Shown: piece after piece, positions 387 through 35,756 of the stretch
How positions within the stretch are numbered: position 1 is the first letter of the stretch
Layout of the letters: each line of letters opens with the position of its first letter
From: Bryum argenteum
Lineage: Eukaryota > Streptophyta > Bryopsida > Bryales > Bryaceae
Direction of reading: 5' to 3'
Length of the DNA: 64,000 bases
Assembly (NCBI GenBank): GCA_037043015.1
Contig: CM073330.1
Location: 5,729,263 to 5,793,262 of the forward strand
The notes under the pieces: generated by a model
What the model was told of the DNA's origin: nothing
The model's input: the letters and a program-made list of their open reading frames with translations, nothing else
Databases searched by the model: none
Position numbers and translations under genes: made by a program

Positions 387-747
387 GCCTCTACGCCAAT
401 GAAGGAAGGATGCTCCGGCTGCTTAGAGGTGATGGTGCTAATGCTGTACATGAGGTAGTGTACATGAGTCTAGTGTAGGAATGCCTGTTTCCAATTTTGG
501 GAGTTGTGATTATGTCGTCATATTTTGTGAAGCATGGATGGAAGAAGAGAGAAGCATGGTTGTGCCACAGCCTATGTCTCCTGTCTCCCATGCTGCAGTT
601 GTTATTTTATGAAGGAAACAGAAAAGGGTTGGAGCTATCTCTGTGATTTTTATGTAATTTTGTGAGTCTTTGTTTCTTTATGCCTTCGTGTTTGTGCGAT
701 GTAATTGAGTTTCCGGGACCTGTACAGTCGGTACCAGCCATTAACGA
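387..747 (+). other. 3' flank of the first gene
   Basis: Contains the duplicated tail at 393-426, then T-rich, UTR-like sequence around 600-700. I see no gene. It ends where the long-inverted-repeat element begins. Confidence 0.4.
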
Positions 748-2193
748 AGAACCGTAAAGTGTTTTAAAATCACATCGGAGTGCTCTACATTATCATGACA
801 AAAAACCGATTCTTTTTTGTATATTATTCAACAAGCTAAGCTTCAAGTATGAAGTACATTTTCAATTGCAAACTTGAAATGAGCTTCCAAAGTTGTTCTT
901 AGCATACATGAGAACATCCTAGTTGAAACATTGATATATTTCTTGTTCGTTTTTGGCTTGGAGGAATTTCTTGATAAGCCCTAACGACTAGTCAACTTTT
1001 CTCAAACCAAGTGAAGGCCTTCCACACTACTACACATGTCAACTTTTCTCAAATCAAGTGAACGCCTTCCACACTACAGATGGAGGACTTGTAGGATGCC
1101 TTCCACACTACAGATGGAGGACTTGGAGGATGGTCGAAGGCTAAGGTGGTATCCCAACCGAGTAAGGTGGGACAAAATTTACCCCATTCCCAACCGAATA
1201 AGCTGATATTGCAAGGGAAATGAGCAAAATTGCTCGGACAAAATTTACACAGATGAGCCAAGTACATAAAACCCCACTGCAGGTAGTTTGAGAATTTTAG
1301 GAATTACTGTGAATTAGTTATGATTTACGGAATGGAAAAAGGGAGCTGTCCCATTTCCATCTGATAGGCTCCTCTATTTACGACACTATTTACGACACTT
1401 TCCAACCCATACACGAACATGCATTGCTTTTTCAACTGAGTTTCCCCAATTCTGTCTTCACATTCTGACATGCACTTTGATACAAACAGTGAACCATATC
1501 TAAATAGTCACATCCCAATGCTTGTGCATCTCATTTCCAACACCCCCTTTACCCAAAATATACTCTTCCTTTGAGGCCAGCTATGTATCACAATTCCTGA
1601 TACGTAATATAGGTAAACAACCTCGTCCATACCTTGATCCCAAATCTCCCTAGCTACTAAACCATTACTCCCGCTACTATTTCTGCCCTGAACTCAACCC
1701 ATTTCCAGCTGCATGTGTAGGTACAACGGTTTTTTAATTTTACACCATTGGTTTTGACGCCAAACTATAGCCCTTGGAATAAGGAGCTAGTTTGGAATGG
1801 GGAAACCACCTTATTAGAGTGATAACTCTCATGACCCATTGTCAAGCCCAAAATTTTCTAGTATTTGAACAAAGATTTATTTTCCACCTTTGAGTGTTGA
1901 TTGTTGATTGAAAACTCATCAAGTAATCACCTCAAACCAAAGAATTTAAAAGAGGAAAATTATTGATCATTCAAGTATGCACTCAAGTATGCTAAGAAAA
2001 TCTTTGAAAGCTCATTTCAAATTTTCAATTAATAATGTACTTCGTAATTGAAGCAAGAAGTAAGAGTAGCCAATGATATAGGGTGTATGAAGAACTTAAA
2101 GCTTGATAAATCAATATACAAAAAATAATTGATTATTCTTTATCATGATATTGTAGAGTACTCTAATATGATTTCAAAACACTTTACGGTTCT
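748..2193. mobile_element. 1.4 kb element with ~220 bp terminal inverted repeats
   Basis: The left arm (about 748-968) starts AGAACCGTAAAGTGTTTT. The reverse complement of the right arm (about 1928-2193) starts with the same 18 bases. Similarity continues for more than 200 bases with substitutions and one extra block of roughly 45 bases in the right arm; for example GAAGTACATT, TTGAAATGAGCTT and TTCTTAGCATAC match in both. The interior (about 970-1927) has no coding frame. It contains a local duplication of GTCAACTTTTCTCAAA (about 992 and 1038) and of a 43-base unit ending CAGATGGAGGACTTG. I see no clear target-site duplication at 738-747 against 2194-2203. Long arms with a non-coding core fit a non-autonomous Mutator-like or foldback element; the superfamily is not settled. 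Confidence 0.7.
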
Positions 2194-2321
2194 CAAATCC
2201 GGTCATTTTTAAGTTCACAATGAATTTTCAAACTTTTGAGAAAAATTTCTTTTGAAGAGGAATTTGTTAACGGCTTGTACGTGAGTGAACATCTCTTCTT
2301 TTAATTTCTATTGTGTCTTAT

Positions 2322-2581
2322 CCCCTAAAGGTCCAAGAAAGCGGAAATCGCTTTTTGGAATTTCCGTAGTGAGAAAATTCAGCCAACTTTGACCATTATA
2401 ATCTCAAAATTCGAGAATGATTAACGGTTCAAATTTGACATTCAAGAAGAGGGTCAAGTTAACTTCAAGATCCTACGGTTGGATCTTTGAATCAATGGTT
2501 AGATTGAGTTTCTTTGCACCTGAAGTAGAAGAAGGTTCTTTTTGATAATTTGAACAATTTTGTATCAAGGACCTTTAGGAA
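2322..2581. mobile_element. 260 bp TTAA-type miniature element (piggyBac-like MITE), copy 1
   Basis: The left end CCCCTAAAGGTCC sits next to TTAT, and the right end GGACCTTTAGG with two further bases is followed by TTAA at 2582-2585. The body (GCCAACTTTGACCATTATAATCTC, then CGGTTCAAATTTGA, then a CTACGGTTGGATCTTTGAAT stretch) aligns with the element at 13467-13725, which is almost the same length. Its first ~46 bases match the left end of the piggyBac element at 21733, and its body matches that element's right end. Confidence 0.65.
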
Positions 2582-2585
2582 TTAA

Positions 2586-3739
2586 TTAATGACATTGAGT
2601 TTTTTCTCCGTTTTGGGCTTAATAGTGGTTTTCAACATTATTTGGATCCCATCAGGTATAGCATGTCTGTGACAGTCATCCGCAATCATGTGTTTTGATA
2701 TTTGGCATGTCTAGGGGTTAATAGGGGACTTTTATAGTATTTAAGAAGATGCTCTAAAATATTCCAATCATAGTACATGTAGGGTATTTACCTCTAGAGG
2801 CCCAAACAACTTGTAATGGACTTTTGTTGTTTCAGCAACCTAGATGAAATGATTAAATTTACTAATTTTGTCTAAGACTTTTTACTGAATGTTTCTGATA
2901 CTACAATTAGTGTGTGTGTAAAAATTTCCAAAGTCAAAATCAAAAACAAAAAATTCTTTACCACAAATTTTAGTGTTCAAGCTCAATAAAGACAACTATT
3001 TTTTTCTATTACTTTAAAGTGTTTTAATGATTTTTATTCATTTACTTTATTTTCAGAATATGTTTATGATGATACTACTACTAGAATATATAATAACTCC
3101 AATTTCAAGCTCTTACCAATTTTACAAAAGCAAGCTTCAAAGATGTGGAAAAAACTTTTGATTAAACTATGAACGTTATGATCTTAAAGTATTAGTGCAA
3201 ATAGTTATTTTGAGGATCTTGCAATTGGAATTATCAAATAAATAAAAACTAATGAATCATACCTTAATTTGCACAAAGTTACTTAGAAAGAATCTACTGT
3301 AGTCAAAAATTGCAGTTTCTGTTTGAAGACTCAAAAACACCCTTGGGTCTTAAGGGTTTTATATAACAAGTTTTAGCACAAATTTAAATTCCTTATTAGC
3401 AGTAGATGTAAGCTTTTGATGAAACATATGCAATTGGTTTCATCTCAAGAGAGGGCTTTCAAGTAGCACTAAAAGTTTTTACCATACTATTTTTTTTTAC
3501 CATATAAAGCAAGACCTCGTGATAAATACAAAAACATATCAATCGTTAGGATACATTCAAGAAAGAAAGGAGATGAATGAGCCTTCCTTTTGATTTCTTA
3601 TATTATAAAGTTAGAATATGCTTTATTGACTTTATAAGGTGGGTTGACTGGGGTTGCACATTGACCAAACGATGGATGGAAATCATATGCATCCGCTATC
3701 GACCACCCATCTTGCCATGCCCCTCCTCCCGTCTTTCTC
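2586..3739. other. AT-rich intergenic DNA
   Basis: No coding frame of interest. A piggyBac-like right end (TCTAGGGGTTAATAGG) lies at about 2709-2723, with no matched left end found nearby. The remainder is old AT-rich repeat-like sequence. Confidence 0.35.
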
Positions 3740-3744
3740 TCCCC

Positions 3745-4298
3745 ACCTATATAATTCAAGCATCACAACACAACTTGTTTGTGCCTCTCCTCTCCTCTCA
3801 TCTCTCTTGCATAACTTGTTCGTGCAATGCGGATGCAACAAAGTTTTGATTGGCGACTCCTTGCAAGCATTGTGCACCTTTAGGTACGTGATTGTTGCTT
3901 GACAGATCGTTGATAGCATATGAGGGTTAGAGTTCCTTTCTCTCTTGGGCGGTTAATGATTCCAAAGAGCGGAAAAGTTGCACTACTCAGTCACCATTTA
4001 ACTGGTTTTTCTTTGTGTTGTTTATTTTTGTTGATCTATTGTCTTTAAATGATCAAGGGTTGGACTCACAAGCCCCAGTTCCTTCAACTTGAATGTTTTT
4101 TTGCTATTGGAGTGTTTTGCTCTCTTGCACTTCTTTAATCCATTTGTTTTTGTGCACCAGTGTATATTTTGTCTTGAACGCGACACAACCTCCTCACCAA
4201 TTAACATGGTCAATTAGGAAACAACAACGCTTGGACCAATTTGCAGGATCGAGACGCAACAAACCCTGACATTGTCTTCGCTCACGACAAAGAAAATT
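3745..4298 (+). promoter_or_regulatory. Possible TATA box and noncoding leader exons of the split gene
   Basis: CTATATAATT at about 3748 is followed by a pyrimidine-rich CTCTCCTCTCCTCTC stretch, a typical plant core-promoter layout. A donor-like GTACGTG follows at about 3882. A 52-base segment bounded by TTTGCAG (ends 4246) and GTAAGT (from 4299) looks like an internal leader exon. Its link to the coding exon that starts after CTTTCAG at 4743 is inferred from splice-site appearance only. Confidence 0.3.
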
Positions 4299-5421
4299 GT
4301 AAGTTTTTTATTCTCAACTTGAGGCTGTTGCAGTTCCTCTTGCAAGAAAAAATCAATTGCTAATATGGCCATCGTTCAAGGCGTCAGGATCGTTGGAAAT
4401 TTTTATTTTCGTGCATTGTATTCTTTAGATCTAAGGATTCTTTAGTTTAGGTTCAGATTTCTAGGTGCTTGATATTCCATAGTTATCAGTTTTCCATTCA
4501 GGGAAGGGTAAGAACATTAATGTAAAGGTTTTATTGCTTGAACCGTCCTCGAAAAGTTGTTTTGAATTGTCAATTAGGTTTGTGAGTTGGTTCCAACTGG
4601 TTACTCTTGATCAAACTGCCGTTTCGAACACCGAATCTGGTGTTCCAATCTTACACACGAGTCCTTAATTCTAGTGTCATTGTACCGTTGTTTCCTGAAA
4701 GAACATATAATCACACGGTTTCTCATGTCCATCTCCCTTTCAGGAAATGGCCAACGTTGAAGACGAGCAGGCTCAAGATCCGAACAGTCAGGGGCCAACT
4801 TATTCGCAGTCCAACGATTCTGTTCCTGAACGCGAACAGGGACGTTCATTCACAATCGACCACTCCGTGCAACCCTGCATTCACTAGTGCAGGGAATGGT
4901 TTAAACACTATGTGAAACACTATCCACAGTGTTTCAACCGGTCCTTGAGATCGGTTGAAACACTATGTGAATAGTGTTTCACATAGTGTTTCAAAGGTAG
5001 TGTTTCAACCCGGTTGAAACACTACCATGTTGAAACACTATCCCTCTCATAGTGTTTCAACATCTACATAAAATGTAGATTTGAGGGAGATAGTGTTTCA
5101 ACATTATCTCATTTGTAGATATTAGGCACCATGTGAGAATCTCTAATTCAATTGATTTTTGTCTCTAGATCCATAGATTTGGAGCTCTCGAATTTGTAGA
5201 TTCTAGTATTCTGCAATTTGTAGATATTCAAACATTCAATCCATAGTATTGAGAGATTTAAATAGTAGAATTCAAAGCCGTAATTTGTAGATTTCACAGT
5301 TCCAATTTACATAGATACAGCTTGTATCCGTAGACTACCCGTCCCCACTAACCTACTACCCAAAGATTTCCTAAAATCTATGTAAACCATATCCTAGAAT
5401 CTGTATGTAAGCTATATTGGC

Positions 5422-7192
5422 CCTGATTTCATGACTCATGTTTGCCAGAAACTCTGATTTGGCTCGGCTAGCTTCTTCAGCAGCAGCTTGGGAGACTTGT
5501 AATGATCTGTTGGCACGTTCCAATTGCAAAGTTCTTGCACGTACCTGTGTGGGCAGACAAATAAATCAGCTAATGCACTTCACCAATGCTTCTACCTGCG
5601 ATTCAAACGTGCTGTTCATTTCGTTCAGCTTGCATTCCATAGCCTTTCGATCATGCACAATGGCAGCCAAAGTGATAGCCACGACCGCCAAAACGCACAC
5701 AAATGTTTGCACCTGCAACAAAATCGGTTCGTGAGAAATGTGACGAAACCTTAAAACTGCAAATGAGTACTGAAAGATGAGCTACCTGCAATAGAGAGTG
5801 GTTGTCGTTCCGACGATACAGCGGCCCTTTGTGATCAGCTGTGCCTGCACTAGCGATGATGGCAACGACCAGAACTGCGAACGGTGCGATTGAACCGAAA
5901 TGAAGACCAGATTACTACTGGAAATACCAAGTAAGATAGTCTTTGCACGGCATCAGTATCACGTACTCCCTGTCAACAATCGAAAATGAGTATCACTACG
6001 ACAGAACACACGATCAAATCACACTCCAAAAAGCTCAAAAACTACTTCTCGATAGACTCCGCAATTGACTTCATCGCATAAAGGTAAAGTATGTGATGTG
6101 TCTCCTTCATGTCCTGCTTCAAGGATTTAGGATCACGTACAACAGCTACATCACTAAGATAACTCATAAGCTCTGGAAATGCGTAACATACTTGTTAAAG
6201 ATTGAGCTTCAAGAAACTTACTTCAATCGAGATAGGTTACAATATTGAGAAGGTCATATGGAACATGCTTTGACTACAATTTTCACCGTTTAACGTACCA
6301 AGTTGAAGAAGATGACCAACGAGAGGATGATGAGCACCACAAAGAGAACGATGCATTCTGCCAGTTTCAATACAAATCGTTGTTGCAAACAAACTTGAGG
6401 ACCTTTTCGTGTCAAGGAGAGTCGACGATGAGGCCTGAAAAACGATCATGTCACAATAAGAAACTCAAAGATGTTGAAAGCAAAGAGAGAGAGAGTAGTG
6501 AGCAAGACCTCGATGAGCTTCGTCGTACAGAGATGAGCCCTTCTTCAGCGCTAGAGAAGCTACTTTCTTCAACAAGCAAATAAGAGCGAGATCCTTCACC
6601 ACCAACACAAAGCTTTCGTCGTCTCTCCAACACCCACTTGTTCCACTTCCCTTTCAAAACCTCCACTCCGTCTTTGAACGTCCGCTTCAAAACAGGAGCT
6701 TCTCGAGGTTTCTGTGAGGTTCCACTTTCCCAAGTCTACTTCGAGAAGATCAGCATCCGAGAATCCCTCGCGGAAGACGGTCTCGTTGCCGTTCCGTGGC
6801 AAGAGCGAGCTCCTGCTGTGCAAAGTTCGAAGTGCAACAGCTTCTCTGTCTTCGATTGTTTTATTAGGAGAGCTTCCATCCTCGGAGTCTAGAGGCCCCT
6901 CGAACTCAATAACTGCCCTGGACTTCCTCGGTTGGCCCAGAATTGGTAGCATGTCGGGTTGTAGCACGTTCCATAAGTGGAGAATGCAGGGCGCGACACA
7001 GAGAATCGATGATAAGTCTCCTAGTACCCAGCTTGGCCATACTAATAGTAGCTTGTCCCAGTGCACTAAATTGAAGATGCAAAGCGAAAAGGCGTTGCAG
7101 GAGCCGCAGATGAAGCTCACGAATGGTACAACTATGAACAACCACATGGCATCGTGGAGTGTGTCTACTGTTAGGGCTCCCTTATTGCTTTC
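5422..7192 (-). pseudogene. Captured fragment of a MASE1-domain sensor histidine kinase
   Basis: On the minus strand, phase-compatible exons are 6603-7192, 6299-6434, 5786-5969, 5596-5712 and 5422-5544. The first carries membrane helices plus WVLGDLSSILCVAP, which resembles the WW-x-GD-xxG-xx-xx-P core of the MASE1 sensor domain. It then encodes a ~130-residue polar loop. The second holds one membrane helix, and the third a YLVFPVVIW helix pair typical of the MASE1 C-terminal half. The fourth has the last helix and the start of a coiled coil. The fifth runs through the coiled coil into FLANMSHEIR, the HisKA H-box with its phospho-acceptor His (codon 5433-5431). The fragment ends right there. 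The rest of the HisKA domain, the ATPase domain and any receiver are absent, and I cannot find the N-terminal half of MASE1. Exon 5786-5969 is 184 bases, so its frame is broken. Retained introns show capture from genomic DNA. Confidence 0.8.
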
Positions 7193-7229
7193 CTGCAACA
7201 CCGTGCTCAACCTTTAAACCTCGCCTTCA

Positions 7230-7880
7230 CATAACCCTCACATGCTGTCACTAGTTCTGATTATACTCCTGGAAACATTCTGTGTAAAAAATGGCTGAAT
7301 TCACCGTTCTCGGCATCAGGTGTATGATCCTAGGGTAGGTTAAAATTTCTCTGCTTTCGGAATAAGCACAAACCTAAAGCCTTGGGTACACATGATCCTT
7401 TGAAGTACAAATGGCTCACTCTGAGACTGTAACCTCCTGTCACTAGTTATAATAAGTAGAATCACTCTGTATACATAATTGGCTGAATAAAATTCACCAT
7501 AAACAACTTCACGTTGAGATCCTACTTGATCTGCTTTGTGAATAAGCTCAAAACTGAATTCCTGACTCCTGAGTACACACAATCCTTCAAAGGAAAACTC
7601 ACGATCATGTAACTACAAATGGCTCACACTCAGGACTTCACCTGTAATTTTTTTTCCTCTAGTGAACGGAATCACTCGGTATACAAAAGCGAGAGCTAAA
7701 TACACGTACACGTTTACGAAGATACCGTAGTTGAAAAACGATCTGCTTACTCAAGAAGCTCAAACCTAAATGTTCCAATGTCCTGTAAAACAGGCTCACA
7801 TTGAGGACATCGCCTGCTACCACTACTTACAGTTTTACTCCTGTGAACGAAATCACTCATTGGCCAAAATCTTTTAAGTT
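7230..7880. repeat. Degenerate ~200 bp tandem repeats inside the CACTA element
   Basis: Three to four diverged units start near 7240, 7437, 7640 and 7810. Shared words include CTGTCACTAGTT, GAATCACTC-x-GTATAC, GATCTGCTT, AATAAGCTCAAA and AAATGGCTCACACTCAGGAC. They lie just upstream (minus-strand sense) of the kinase fragment, where its N-terminal exons would be expected. Confidence 0.6.
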
Positions 7881-7919
7881 CTCGATTACGATCCTAAAAA
7901 CCATCGATAGCGCGACGTG

Positions 7920-8610
7920 TTACAAATGAAACAAGAAAATTTCCTTTTGTCTTAAGAAGGACCGTAACGTCATAAGTCTAAAGCTAAGCGAGTATTTCTT
8001 AACTTCCAAATGTGACAATGGTTGCGTGATAACCTTCGCCAGCAGCGGAACCCCGGAATGTGCTGCCGACCATCGGAACGGCCAGAAACTGGCGAATGCG
8101 TCGACAGCTCGTTCAATCCAACAACAAAAGCGATGAAACAGCTTCCAGCGTCGTCCATCACCACCTCCATTGGAATTCTTATTCCCGATACCACCACCTC
8201 CTCCAAGCTCCACCTGCAGAAACAATGGTCAATCCCACGCACATTGCAGCAAAAACCCTGAGCCACTCACGTTATCCACGACCATAATTTCTCAATCAGA
8301 ATCCCCGCAAAAGCTCGTCATCATCGAAAAGTCGCCATCACCTGTCGAAATTCTCCAGCTTGTCCACAGCGGTGAAACCCTAGGTCACTATTTCCACAAT
8401 CACAAACTGAATTCCGTGCTAAAATTCACTGAATTTCAAAGTAAGCAATCATTGTACCTCCTGCTTGACCTTGGCCGTAGATTGCCAGAAATCCAGCTTC
8501 GACTTCTCCAAAGTGGCGCCATCACGGCCGAAAGCACCATTCAAAACGAAACAGAAGCTTTCTTCTCTACTCAACAAATGTTCTCAAAGCAAGCTGTCAA
8601 TTCTATCTTG
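7920..8610 (-). other. Possible leader or N-terminal piece of the captured gene
   Basis: On the minus strand an exon-like Gly-rich frame begins after TTTCTGCAG (about 8211) and reads toward 7970. It is GC-richer than its surroundings. It shows no MASE1 helix pattern, so I cannot assign it to the kinase. Confidence 0.25.
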
Positions 8611-8660
8611 TAGAAAATGCAGCCAAGGAAGTGGCGTTGACTCATTGGCCATAGTCCCGA

Positions 8661-8767
8661 GAAGTGAGCAGCCGAGATTCTTAGAAGTGAGCAGCCGAGA
8701 TTCTTAGAAGTGAGCAGCCGAGATTCTTAGAAGTGAGCAGCCGAGATTCTTAGAAGTGAGCAGCCGT
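8661..8767. repeat. 23 bp tandem repeat, about 4.7 copies
   Basis: Exact head-to-tail copies of GAAGTGAGCAGCCGAGATTC with a TTA spacer start at 8661, 8684, 8707, 8730 and 8753. Identity between copies suggests recent expansion. There are no CRISPR-type unique spacers. Confidence 0.95.
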
Positions 8768-10378
8768 AGACATTTTCAAATATTATTCTAAAGTTTTCGT
8801 ACATTTTCCTAAACTTGAAGAAATGATCATGTTGTGATATGTAATATTTCTCTTGATTCTTTGGGCTAGTGTAATATCGGGAAGCAATATCTACAAATAC
8901 TTATTTGGTTGAAACACTATCTTATGTTGTAATAGTGTTTCAACCATGTTGAAACATTATCTAGGAATTTTCATGGTTGAAACACTATCCCAACCTAGGA
9001 TAGTGTTTCAACATAGTGTTTGAACACCATTTCGCACTAGTGATTCAGGTGCCATCAAAGTTATGCAAATTATCTACAGTTCAAGTCGATTGATAGCATT
9101 AAGTGATAGTGTTAAGAGCTCAGCTTCTTCACTCTTTTTAAGTGAGCCAGTAGACCCAAGCGTTTGATTTCGTCTGAATCTGAATGCGCCGAACGTTCTA
9201 GTGAGAAAGTCCGGTGTATCCAGTGGCTTATAACCATCTTGCACGGCATGGACGATAAATCTCACCACATGTTCAACTGAGATATTTCGATCCGTGTGTT
9301 CAGTTTCCAGATCAACTGCAACACGAATCCGAAAATGCCACTGCAGAACAAGCCCAGAGGCCGCTATCAGAACCACTACCAGAAGTCTATTAGGATGTCG
9401 AGGTCTAATTCGATCGATACAGTGCTACTCTTTCAGCTGTGTACTATCCACCGGTTTAATCGTTGATTGTACCGTTGAATTACAGTTTTCTTTTTTACAT
9501 CAGGTGACCGAGCCGTACATCGATCCACATGTCACACTTACTGAGGAGGAGTTAAGTGGGATCGTTACAAGTGAGCAAGTGCCAAGCCGCACCCTCCCGG
9601 ATGTTCGTGTGATATCAGGATTCACTCCAGATGTAGAACGGGAGCTCTTGAGCATACTCGCAGACATCAGGGGCCAGTACTCTGCGGCAAGAGGGAGACA
9701 CCAAAGATTCAGAGGAAGACCTCAGGTAAGCATCTTTAAGATACGATAGTGAACTGCTTCCTACATACCTTGCAATGAGCTTTCTAACAGTGAGGGAAAT
9801 TGTTCAAATCAGGTTGAGATCGGGGTGATTCAAGGCCCTACTGTTCGTGCTGAAGAGATCTTTGTGACTCCACCAGGCTCGCCACCAAGCGAATCCGACG
9901 ACTCACCACAGCCGGATCAAACACATGCTGCAAGTGAGAGTGAGAAGGAAAAGAAACTGAAGCCTCCAGAGCCGTCAAAGGCCACTGGTACAAAGAGGAA
10001 ATACACGAGATTCGCATCGGCAACAGGTGCTGGAGTCTCGAGTAGCTTTCAGGTGCCTGCAGAAGTGCCAGTCGAAGCACCAACATGGGTGGATGTGCCA
10101 GTGCAGGAGTTGGCTTACCTCCCTACACTTGTGGAGACAACCACCACGACTTTAGCTGACACTCCAACGGTACGATCAATACCACACAACTGCTGTAGCT
10201 CTGTTTTTAAATGCATTTGAATGTTAAAGGCATAATCAGGTTTCTCATATCAGAGAAGTGAATGGCAATTGTTCAGGTCAACTTGGCTGAGCAGGTGAAC
10301 GATGTTGAAGATCATGAGAAGAGAGTTTCTAAGGAGGCTGTGGAGAAATGGTTGGAGGATTGCCGTCCGAAGGAGTAG

Positions 10379-23333: not shown

Positions 23334-24135
23334 GTCTCATGAAACACACTAAATCTTCAATATTCTGATGCAGATGGAGTTGGACGGAATACCGATACGT
23401 TGCAGTGCGAGATTGTGTGTGGAGCCCGGGCCAAGCACAGCCTCTTCCACCCCTCCATCTAGTGAAGACGACGCTCCTAATCCTCCACGTTATCCTGAAC
23501 ATGAGTTGTCTGATCTTGGTGATGGTCTTCAAACGTTTGCTCTTCCGCATAATCGAAGTAGATTTCAATATTGACTACATTACTTCTCAAGAAATTGCTA
23601 GATACTACTCAAGCTCTGAAGATCTCATTGACAACCATTCAGACAGCGAAAACGATAGGGGTGGAGGTCTCGAAGATCTACTGTGGCCGCCGGAGGTACT
23701 AATGCAGGCTCGAAATTACGGAGCGACCTCACGCAAGCGACGCGGCGATTATCGGAGGAGTTCTCCCGCACCGAACCAAAGATCACCGTCGGAGCACGCC
23801 GAGGCGCTCGGACCCTCGGGCACGCCGCCGAGAGCGATCGCCGGGGCTCTTCGACGAGATCGGAGCAGCGGTGGCGATCGCCCCATGCTGCCGGAGTCGC
23901 GGTTTTCAACGGCAGGCAAGAGGCCAACGGTGGCGCCTTATCGGCGGGGTCTGCTAGGGAGATTTTGGGCCCGGATTGGCCTGCCAGCGATGCCCCCGAC
24001 ATGCGTGGGGTTGATGACCAGATGCTGCCAGTAGACGCCGAGATGCTCGCAAGAAATCTGCAGATTTGTTTTTCAAGCGACTCGCCAACTGGGCAACTCC
24101 AGTCAGTTTGGCCAAGGAGTCAACATGATCATCAT

Positions 24136-26117
24136 ATGGAGGGTGAGGGCAGAGGGTATATTTTGCCACTGCATGGAGGAGGTGTGGGTAACTTGCATAA
24201 TAACAAGAATCATAACTTCTATAACGAAGGTGACCATACTCACATGAATGGGAATGACGGAGGAATCTCACCGGTAACAAGGAGAAGAGGCAGACATGGT
24301 ATTCGGGGTGACTTGAGTGATGACTTGAGTGAGGAAACTCCCTTGGTTGATAGTGATGTAGAGAGTGATGGTGATGGTCCAAATGTGGGCTCAACCCACA
24401 ATCAAACGGGACTGAAGTGGGAGTATAGAGATGAGACTTGGGAAAGTCCCCGTATCATGTATAATCCTCAACCTATCCCTTTTTGTGGTAATAGGAGAGG
24501 CCCTTCAAGAAACTATCGTGTACTTCCCACATTTATGGAGTTGTTTCATTTATTTTGGACTCCTCAAATCATGTCCAAAATTGTGTTTGAGACAAATAGG
24601 TATGCTAATACCCCATCCGGTGAGGGTGGAAGCACTAAGGGTGGACCACAATGGTATGATTTGACTATATCCGGTCTACAAGCATTTATGGCATTGGCTC
24701 TCTATATGGGGTTGAAGGTGCAACCCAACAACAAGACTTATTGGATGAGAGATGACTTGTTTCAATGTAAGGTGATATCTAGCATATACTCAAGAAATCG
24801 GTTTTGGGATTTGAGGAGATGTTTGCACCTTACTAATATGGAGGGGATGCATAGAGGTGACCCGGGCTATGATAAGATTGGACAAACACGATGGTTGATA
24901 AATAGCATTAGGGAGCGATGCAAAATGGCTTGGTGTCTTGGGAAGCATATTACTATTGACGAAATGATATCCGATACAAGGGAACTTATTCCCCTATTCG
25001 GCAATATATGCCCAACAAGCCCCAAAAATGGGGCTTGAAAGTATGGTGCTTGACATGTTCTGCTTCCAAGTTTGTGTACAATTTCGAAATTTATTGTGGC
25101 AAGGAGCAAGTTCCCGGTCCCCCTATTTTACCTATTGGGACCGATCCCATAACTTCTAATGCAAATAATGGCTTAGGACCGGGTGCCATAGGCCAAAATG
25201 GAGGAATTCTACTTAGAGAAGAAGTGGTGGAAGTTTCTAATACAATTGGGGATGCAAGATTAGCACACAACGTCGTGATGAGATTGCTTGAAGGTCTTTG
25301 GGATGTTGGGCATGTAGTGACCATGGACAATTTTTTCACAAGTGTAGGCCTTTTTACAACACTTTTAGAACGTGGTATGTATGCCACCGGTACTATAAGG
25401 GCAAACCGTATTGGTATTCCTACATGTTTGAAAAATGTCAAAGCCTTCAAAAATGTGCCACAAGGGACAACAATTTGGAAGATGCATGAGTATGGGAGAC
25501 TTTCTTGTGTTATGTGGAAAGACAAGAAGCCCGTGCTCCTTCTTTCCACACATGCTATGCCTATTCAAGCACCATGTGAGAAAGTGGTATGTGTTCCCCG
25601 CCGGAATGGTGCAATTAGAGAGATGGTCCAAACTTCACCGGTTTTGCATGAATACACAACTCACATGCGCGGAGTTGATGTCGCTGATCAACTCCGTGCA
25701 TCTTATTCTTGCCAAGTGCGGAGCCACAAATGGTGGCACTGCATCTTCTTTTTCTTATTGGATGTCACCGTGTGCAACATGTACATTTACTACTTGGAGT
25801 GTGTGACACATGTCAATTCCCACCGATGCGCGGTGACCCCTATGACCCACTTACAATTCAAGAAGGGGTTGTGTGAAGCCTTGCTAGCGGGGTGGAATTT
25901 GAGAAGTTCGGAACCGGAGGACTTTGCGCCATTATCGACCCAACCGGTGATTTGTGTTCCAAGGTATACCACATTACGGCGGAAATGTGTGGTGTGCAAA
26001 GTCCGCGAACCACATTACTTTTGCTCCAAGTGTGGCAATAAGTGGATGTGCCTAAAGCAAGGTTGTTTTGAGCAATGGCACACCGCCCTTGCTACACGGC
26101 GCCAATTCCCTAATTGA
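24136..26117 (+). pseudogene. piggyBac-type transposase with one frameshift
   Basis: The frame is open from 23683; the first plausible ATG is 24136. An acidic N-terminal tail (ETPLVDSDVESDGDG) is followed by the DDE_Tnp_1_7 fold. It has the entry segment FHLFWTPQIMSKIVFETNRYA, the TIDEM motif with the first catalytic Asp, the VVTMDNFFTS motif with the second, and MRGVDVADQ with the third. The C-terminus has the Cys-rich zinc-binding region CVVCK, CSKCGNKWMC, then C-x4-WHT. The two halves are in different frames. The break lies at about 24973, between TIDEMIS and RQYMPNKPQKWGLKVW, where two extra bases (or one missing base) interrupt the domain. No other stops interrupt the ~660-codon sequence, so inactivation looks recent. 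PiggyBac cuts and pastes at TTAA. Confidence 0.88.
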
Positions 26118-31058: not shown

Positions 31059-33711
31059 ATGGCATTCAGTCCTAGAGGACAGTGGACCCAGGGTGCACCG
31101 TATACATCAAGTGATGATGTACTATACAACAATATAGTGTTAGAAGATGAGAGGATGGGCGGCAGTGAGAATGACGGTTCCAGTGGGAATGGGTCTCGTG
31201 ATTTAAATCAGGATGTAGACTACAGAGGGTTGGAGAGGGTGATTGCGGTGCAGCAAAGACAAAGCAATGGCATGAGACGAGAGAGTGGGTCTCATAGGAA
31301 AGGAGTTGGGGATAGGAGAAGCGACACTCAAGCAGGTCGGCAAAGATCTATCGCAGGAGTTCGGCTGTTTACGAGTGGTACTGCAGCTGCGTCGGGTAGC
31401 TTCACCAGCAGAGGATTCGGTGGGCAAGGTGCTGCAACTGCAGCCCTGGACTGCAGTAGAGTCGACGACATTACTGTTGTGGGGTCGCAGCCTTCACTAT
31501 CAGCATTCACCCCGGTCGTGCCAGCCTCCTCATTGCCCATCTCCGAACCGTCAACGCAACCACAACCTAGCATTCGCAGACCTCGTAGGACTAAGAAGAC
31601 AGGCAATTGGAGTGACATTCAATTACGAGATGCAATGGCAGCAGTAGATGGAGGTATGAATATGCACAAGGCTGCTCAATTGTATCACATACTTTATTCA
31701 TCATTTCGTGAATGATGTTACGGCGTGAGGACGAGTCGGAAAAAGGGACCACCTACAGTCTTGACTCCATCTGAAGAGAAGCAACTTGTAGATTACTGCA
31801 TTCGCATGTGTGAGTTGGGGCAAGGTCTAACACCTAGTGCTCTAAAACTGAAAATCTATGACATTACGAAGTCAAGAGCAACTCCCTTTTGTATGGCATT
31901 CCTGGTCCAGGGTGGATGCGGTGGTCGAAGCACCGTCATCCTGAGCTGACATTGCGAGTGTCGCAGGCTCTTGAAACAACAAGAGTTCGGGACCTGTGTC
32001 CATAAAACATTCATAGTTTTTATGAGAACTTACAAAGTTTGATGACCTTGCATGAGTATGGTGCGGACAAGACCTGGAATTGTGACGAGTCTGGAGCTCA
32101 AGCAAGTAGAAACGGTAGAGGAATTGTCATCGCTAGAAGAGGTGCCCACCATGTACACCCAAGTGTGCCTGACCAAAGAGAGTAGCTTAGTGTGCTGGTT
32201 TGCGTAAATGCGGATGGAGTTAGCATTCCTTCCTTCTATGTCTTCCGAGGCACTAGATTCAGACAGAATTACATTGAGCGATGTGAGCCCAAGGCCACAA
32301 TGGCAATGCAACCTCAGGCTTGGATGATTACATACCTCTTTAGCGCGTGGTTGTCACACTTCATTGAAAGTGTACAACACATGGGGGGGATTTCAGCTGA
32401 ACGCCGACACCTCTTGATTCTCGACGGTCATAATTCGCATTGCACGTTGGATGTTGTACGCGAGGCCCGTGCTGCAGGTTTAGACATCCTCACACTTCCT
32501 GCACCTACAAGTCATGCAGTGCAACCATTAGATGTTAGTGTGTTTAAGTCATTCAAGCAGCATTTTAGAGCTTACAGGGATTTCTGGACATCTAGAAACC
32601 TATCAGAGCCTGCAACCAAATCTACCTTAGCTCATTGGGTGCACCTTGCTCTACGAAAAGCACTCACAGAAGAGAACATTAGGAGTGGGTTTAGAGGCAC
32701 AGGGATATACCCTATGAACCCTGCGGCGTTGAATTCGCAGTTGGCCCCTTCCGAGATTTTTATTCCCCCTACAGACGCAGCTACCACAGTGGCGATGTTA
32801 AGCTGCAACAATGATGCAGCGGACTCGACATCATGCGACCATGTCAACATCCAACACAAAACAGAGGTAAACAACTGTACATTGCAGCATGAAAACGAGG
32901 GCATGCAAGAGGAAGATCAAGAAGAATAAACTCACCTATAGACGAGGCTCAGACTTTGGAGATGGAAAATGAGTTAGTTCAAATCCCTGACTGCTCTGCG
33001 TTGCATTTTTTCGTTGCAGCAGAAGTAGAGGACTACATGGAAGAAGAAGCGCGGATTGCAAGCATTGACGCTACCGAGGGGGGACCTCAGTCTATAACCA
33101 CGTTTCTAACACTGCCGACGATCACACCCCGAGCCTTTTCAAGACGCAGGGATCCCCTGTTGGACTTCACGAAGTCCAAAATTCTAACATCGGATGAGTA
33201 CGCAACGGCAGTGGCAAGATTACAGGATGCGAAGGAATCAGCGGCAAGGGAGAAAGAGAGATTGCGTATAGAGAGGGGTGAGATGGGTTTGCGGAAGGCA
33301 ACATTGAAGGAGGCTGGTGCTGTCGAGCTTGCCGAGGCCCCAGCTCATCGGTTGGAAGAGAAGGAGGAGGCCGCACGCTTAAGGGCAGTGCGAGCAGCGG
33401 AAGTGGCATCGGTGAGGGCAGCAAAAGCAGCCGAGAAGGCTCACAGATCTTCGCGACGAGGGGGCGCAACCATTGAGATAGCATAGGGGCTCCAAGTCAA
33501 TACAGAGGAAGTAGAACCAGTGGAAGAGAATAGCGAACCTCAAGCCCCGGAGCAAGGCTTCTCTTTCAATGCTCCAGGTATCGCAAATCATTACTTCTCC
33601 TACACCCCAGTATCTCAGGGGATGCAGCACCCGTACTTCCTCCCACTCAACCAACTCAGTAACCATGTGCTAAGTATGTCGCCAAACCCCCACTCCCAAC
33701 CAATTCTGTAG
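31059..33711 (+). pseudogene. Decayed pogo/Tigger-like (CENP-B/DDE_1) transposase
   Basis: A variable Ser/Gly-rich N-terminus (from ATG 31059) leads to a psq/CENP-B-type helix-turn-helix (NWSDIQLRDAMAAVDGG, then KAAQLYHI). A GPPTVLTPSEEKQLVDYC segment follows, as in pogo transposases. The DDE_1 catalytic region has TWNCDESG (first Asp), LLILDGHNSH (second Asp) and HAVQPLDVSVFKSFKQHF (third Asp), then FRGTGIYPMNP. A Glu/Arg/Ala-rich tail at 32956-33486 contains DPLLDFTKSKILTSDEY, usual for the C-terminus of this family. Breaks: in-frame TGA at 31713, a frameshift near 31890, TAA at 32003, TAG at 32183, another frame change near 32927-32956, and TAG at 33484. It cannot make a whole protein. Terminal inverted repeats and TA target sites were not identified. 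Confidence 0.85.

Positions 33712-35756
<2,045 letters not shown>

Follow-up and report, generated by a model that had tools for sequence, protein, structure and literature searches.

A CACTA-type element of Bryum argenteum carrying fragments of host genes, among them part of a MASE1 hybrid histidine kinase gene

Structure of the element and its insertion site

We report on a 64,000-nucleotide stretch of the Bryum argenteum genome (contig CM073330.1; the whole stretch is referred to as the window), in which positions 4882-9042 are occupied by a CACTA-type transposable element that contains part of a MASE1 hybrid histidine kinase gene, including introns, together with sequences that match two other host loci (Table 1). 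The element is bounded by a perfect 9-bp terminal inverted repeat (TIR), such that it starts with CACTAGTGC and ends with GCACTAGTG, and it is flanked on each side by ATT, representing a 3-bp target-site duplication (TSD). Palindromic GTTGAAACACTAT subterminal repeats are present in both orientations, direct and inverted, at both ends. The CACTA superfamily (En/Spm, CMC) generates a TSD of 3 bp, and its members carry short subterminal repeats in both orientations; the window element has the CACTA-starting TIRs, the 3-bp duplication and the subterminal repeats in both orientations. These ends, the ATT duplication and the subterminal repeats had been described in an initial annotation of the locus, and all of them were recovered here.

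To the right of the cargo the element also contains a tandem repeat with a 23-base unit (Table 1). The two flanks were joined with one ATT kept (590 bases) and searched against the genome, and ten places were listed: two correspond to the window's own flanks, two match one side only and six are element-free across the site. The best two of these six were read at the sequence level, and both C10:3788985-3789561 (92%) and C10:8386666-8387262 (87%) are uninterrupted empty sites with a single ATT; the remaining four show 70-73% identity. The reading frame at the site, together with the CAGGTG after it, suggests that the element inserted a few bases upstream of a splice donor, within an exon belonging to a gene or repeat family; two frames to the right of the insertion site gave no Pfam match at E 0.001.

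Table 1. Features of the element and its borders (positions refer to the window)
Feature	Position	Strand	Remarks
Target-site duplication ATT, left copy	4879..4881
Left terminus: 9-bp TIR CACTAGTGC and palindromic GTTGAAACACTAT subterminal repeats	4882..5102	+	Similar ends elsewhere in the genome
Left internal stretch	5103..5421		Common to two full-length copies and the C2 elements; no gene assigned
Putative internal-deletion junction, kinase exon end joined to left internal stretch	5420..5424		Extra sequence kept in sister copies
Captured part of the MASE1 hybrid histidine kinase gene, introns included	5422..7913	-	~93% identical to donor C8:6455309-6457817
Kinase exon 6 (coiled coil and HisKA H-box SHEI)	5423..5544	-	Splice donor lost (GG)
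Kinase exon 5 (last helix and start of coiled coil)	5596..5712	-
Kinase exon 4 (MASE1 helices)	5786..5969	-	8-base deletion common to three full-length copies, leads to stop
Kinase exon 3 (MASE1 helix)	6299..6434	-
Kinase exon 2 (MASE1 part)	6509..7192	-	+1 frameshift relative to donor
Second captured stretch	7930..8157	-	87% identical to C6:6960940-6961164, upstream of exons with DUF676 esterase matches
Third captured stretch	8154..8540	-	86% identical to C7:8684496-8684897, 5' part of RETICULATA-like gene
Further stretch of the RETICULATA-like locus	8555..8639	-	85% identical to C7:8685216-8685307; donor bases between the two stretches missing
Tandem 23-base repeat AGAAGTGAGCAGCCGAGATTCTT	8660..8774	+
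Right terminus: subterminal repeats and TIR GCACTAGTG	8775..9042	+
Target-site duplication ATT, right copy	9043..9045		Single ATT here in two related loci

The captured kinase piece and its donor gene

Element positions 541-3032 match the locus C8:6455309-6457817 at 93% identity, with the introns included. At this locus, exon 1, which lies upstream of the captured part, encodes a MASE1 piece (38.1 bits, cut-off 29.8), and HisKA (52.6 bits), HATPase_c (48.2 bits) and a second receiver piece (46.0 bits) are found downstream of it, all above their cut-offs; moreover, exons 2-6 join as a single open frame. Judged by its domain content and by this match, the C8 locus is a MASE1-HisKA-HATPase-receiver gene and the source of the kinase piece of the element. 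The proposal in the initial annotation that a CACTA element had captured an intron-containing MASE1 histidine kinase fragment is borne out, as are its expectations of a donor gene with the remaining domains and of further copies, since C6:3711068 and C8:10729976 carry the same ends and cargo. Its five minus-strand exons could all be located (Table 1), while their phase compatibility holds only in the donor: in the window copy it is broken by the +1 in exon 2 and the 8-base deletion in exon 4.

The captured part comprises exons 2-6 with their introns and begins inside intron 1, leaving exon 1 with the first MASE1 helices outside. All kinase splice sites in the window have AG/GT, apart from the donor that follows the last (H-box) exon, where GG is found; none of the three full-length copies of the element retains this donor. 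It had been suggested that the fragment was cut right after the phospho-acceptor His. This cut is better not taken as the capture boundary, as another copy, C6:10079996, continues beyond the H-box exon for ~265 bases into donor sequence, and a C2 element does so for ~44 bases. Because these copies extend further, the sharp end at 5422 is best explained by a later internal deletion common to the three full-length copies and not by the edge of the capture; on this comparison, the captured DNA started in intron 1 and reached into the intron that follows the H-box exon. Since the break coincides with the 3' end of the H-box exon, precise intron removal via an RNA intermediate was considered; it was ruled out because there is no AG acceptor on the far side of the junction in the sister element and the other introns are kept. 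An ordinary deletion with short microhomology fits the junction. Separate captures of the kinase piece in C6:10079996 and in the window copy were likewise rejected, given that the two have the upstream junction and many substitutions relative to the donor in common.

The genome, whose gene content (RETICULATA-like, SOS1) points to a land plant, holds at least five MASE1 loci, among which the C8 locus (L011/L012, C8:6445310-6465309) has hybrid-kinase domains. Compared with the donor, three of the four further loci are 54-56% identical around the coiled coil and H-box, and the fourth is 35% identical over a longer stretch. Like plant hybrid histidine kinases, the C8 donor has HisKA, HATPase_c and receiver at one locus; the plant enzymes have sensors of the CHASE, ethylene or phytochrome types, whereas the sensor of the donor is MASE1, a domain usually discussed in bacteria. 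Searches of open-licence literature on MASE1 in mosses and land plants found no paper on such plant genes, and those on MASE1 in plant or eukaryotic hybrid histidine kinases listed papers on bacteria.

Further captured stretches

The kinase fragment is the cargo that the initial annotation had recognised, and it is one of several captured stretches; two more loci, one RETICULATA-like and one upstream of a DUF676 esterase, had been missed. In element coordinates, the esterase-upstream stretch spans 3049-3276 and the RETICULATA-like stretches span 3273-3659 and 3674-3758. The second and third captured stretches consequently share 4 bases, an overlap that looks as in microhomology-mediated joining. 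The sequence between the CACTA ends matches loci at other places in the genome (kinase, RETICULATA-like and DUF676), as in Pack-CACTA elements.

In a C2 element, the two sides of the 5422 junction are separated by ~1.9 kb, which includes a piece of an SOS1-type Na+/H+ antiporter gene (E 2.4e-11, and 2.8e-19 for a second frame, against solved SOS1 chains). The SOS1 fragment, at positions 3430-5270 of locus L013 (C2:32791430-32793270), matches C2:22948203-22949457 at 96%. It is also present in a second C2 element (L014), and the C6:10079996 copy matches only the sequence flanking it. The four assigned pieces (three in the window and SOS1 in L013) all lie in the kinase sense, a number that is too small for a test (n=4).

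Related copies and a candidate transposase source

The terminus pattern CACTAGTGC followed by 8-38 bases and AAACACTAT gave 24 matches, nested ones included, in the 259-Mb genome, and none when reversed as a control. The matches represent 17 distinct ends, of which C3:3033736 and C6:7069144 are otherwise unlike the family. Two further full-length copies, C6:3711068-3715196 and C8:10729976-10734114, are each 98% identical to the window copy over the whole element and are flanked by duplications of their own, TGG/TGG and TAT/TAT, respectively. Pairwise comparison of the three full-length copies yields 40/4122, 32/4116 and 48/4110 differing sites (0.8-1.2%, substitutions only). The same cargo in three full-length copies with different TSDs indicates that the element was mobile after capture. 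Among the seven elements in which both ends were recognisable (those at the fetched loci and the window copy), five have matching 3-bp duplications: ATT, TGG, TAT, CCG (C2:32790227) and AGT (C10:9293245). The C6:10079996 copy is the fourth with the cargo; the first base of its right end is altered, and a left end to match was not found. The AGT duplication belongs to a 2-kb relative with identical CACTAGTGC ends (L019, positions 5245-7239; C10:9293245-9295239).

The four copies differ from the donor by fewer fixed changes in exons (27/1232) than in introns (63/1170; p = 4e-5). Within the set of three full-length copies, exons contain 8/1234 variable sites and introns 16/1184, a difference that is not significant (p = 0.10). 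The simplest reading is that much of the divergence arose under constraint on the branch of the host gene.

A genome search with PF02992 (tnp2) gave 150 scored matches among 596 candidates; CACTA enzymes are therefore plentiful in the genome. One locus, L025, has a right end that is 83% identical to the element family and, ~1 kb inside this end, a 1101-amino-acid stop-to-stop frame. A paired-end scan of ten loci for an autonomous partner found none, with a criterion that was too strict, since it also missed L019. Among the matches listed, those to tnp2 are numerous on contig C1; at a guess, C1 is perhaps repeat-rich or a sex chromosome.

Discussion

The ends of the element are intact, duplications occur at independent sites, empty sites exist, the full-length copies are nearly identical, and a donor kinase gene as well as matches to three host loci are present. 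We consider it very probable that the element is a non-autonomous, recently mobile, Tgm-Express-like Pack-CACTA, with decayed exon cassettes and presumably moved in trans. A tnp2-type CACTA transposase would act in trans on the terminal and subterminal repeats and move the element by cut and paste. Host sequence may have been taken up stepwise as DNA during faulty excision or gap repair and joined via short microhomology; capture at the DNA level is argued by the retained introns. Comparison of the copies further suggests that an ancestral element held more of the kinase gene, that an internal block reaching to the end of the H-box exon was subsequently deleted in the lineage of the window copy, and that the C2 lineage gained the SOS1 piece or, alternatively, that the other lineages lost it. 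The donor, the empty sites, the sister copies and intermediate states of a multi-locus CACTA capture are all available in one genome, and therefore an order of steps (capture, further capture, internal deletion and spread) can be proposed from sequence alone.

Several observations weigh against this interpretation. With respect to movement in trans, the tnp2 match of L025 is weak (22.9 bits, cut-off 28.6), the first base of its TIR is changed and 6 kb of additional sequence did not reveal its other end. Because of the changed TIR and the missing end, L025 is a candidate autonomous partner only. Two of the seven two-ended elements, L014 and L020, have damaged ends and no matching duplications. 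As regards the donor, its second MASE1 piece (26.3 bits, cut-off 29.8) and first receiver piece (27.5 bits, cut-off 30.2) score below their cut-offs, and its open frame refers to exons 2-6, the exons that were joined. Finally, the lower exon divergence could also mean that the fragment was once under coding constraint.

Action at the RNA level, by which transcripts or small interfering RNAs from the element would silence or modulate the donor kinase along with the other source genes, is unlikely. The ~97% exon identity to the donor over ~1.2 kb in four copies would suit such a role, as would the palindrome-rich ends of the element; against it, the captured parts are not inverted repeats of each other in the window copy. 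A broader scheme, in which the family is a stepwise assembler of same-sense exon cassettes (sensor-kinase, RETICULATA-like, esterase-upstream and, in one lineage, SOS1) whose chimeric transcripts or small RNAs tune the donors and a MASE1 two-component pathway, is speculative and seems to us somewhat less likely still.

It had also been suggested in the initial annotation that the element encodes a truncated, readable sensor, i.e. a MASE1-coiled coil-H-box protein acting as a dominant decoy in two-component signalling. In the window one can still recognise the exons, all splice sites but one and the H-box motif, and the lower divergence in exons than in introns would agree with a coding role. 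The reading frames argue strongly against it. Three copies, those in the window and at C6:3711068 and C8:10729976, show -8 in exon 4 relative to the donor. The window copy additionally has +1 in exon 2, and its joined frame stops ahead of the H-box; C6:3711068 combines -8 and +2 in exon 2, which leaves that exon net in frame; and in C8:10729976 exon 5 contains an in-frame duplication of 21 bases. The fourth copy, C6:10079996, shows -1 in each of exons 2 and 4, and its exon 6 has gained 24 bases in frame. With the exon model used, the frame is hence lost before the H-box in all four copies that carry exons 2-6, to which this tally applies (the C2 copies, having the last part only, were left out). 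In addition, exon 1 is outside the captured part and the splice donor after the H-box exon is gone in the three full-length copies. We therefore regard the decoy as very unlikely. Nor is there a frame that continues through MASE1 and the H-box to the ATPase and receiver domains, as expected for a functional kinase, given the frameshifts and the absence of exon 1 and of everything after the H-box exon; the longest stop-to-stop frame in the element is of 205 amino acids and is kinase-derived. If transcribed, the exon cassettes would yield a spliced chimeric RNA without an intact kinase frame, and as a functional gene the element is probably nothing.

A further view, that the kinase piece is not cargo but arose by segmental duplication of the donor gene and only afterwards received a CACTA insertion, might be suggested by the length and retained introns of the piece, but we hold this to be refuted, as the same piece lies between the same ends at three full-length sites with different duplications and is lacking from two related empty sites.

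As a Pack-CACTA, the window element is an ordinary but well-documented one, and it adds a further member to a class of gene-capturing elements that is already known. Its closest parallel is Tgm-Express1 of soybean, a CACTA-type element with fragments of five genes, the exons of which are spliced into chimeric transcripts (PMC1947982). The two are alike in being CACTA-type and in their cargo of exon and intron pieces from several unrelated host genes, with splice sites that are usable; they differ in the genes concerned, and the window element is inserted in a putative exon. Pack-CACTA elements have been described for Arabidopsis, and Pack-TYPE elements have been annotated in rice and maize, for which a TSD of 5 nt is given (PMC8903248). 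A 2026 review names aberrant excision of neighbouring elements as the proposed mechanism of Pack-CACTA capture (PMC13317346). With the elements treated in these two sources the window element shares a non-autonomous nature, TIRs, TSDs and mobilised coding DNA; unlike these flowering-plant elements, its cargo includes part of a MASE1 hybrid kinase gene. Neither mosses, bryophytes nor Physcomitrium are mentioned in PMC8903248 and PMC13317346. Our literature searches found no report of a bryophyte Pack-CACTA, which is not proof of absence.

Other features of the window

Other transposon-related sequences are present elsewhere in the window. Two overlapping frames at 23659-26114 match the DDE_Tnp_1_7 (piggyBac-type) transposase, and a frame at 32186-32926 is DDE_1 (pogo-type) transposase-like. 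At ~34300-35700 there is a trinucleotide microsatellite of ~1.4 kb that is open in several frames.

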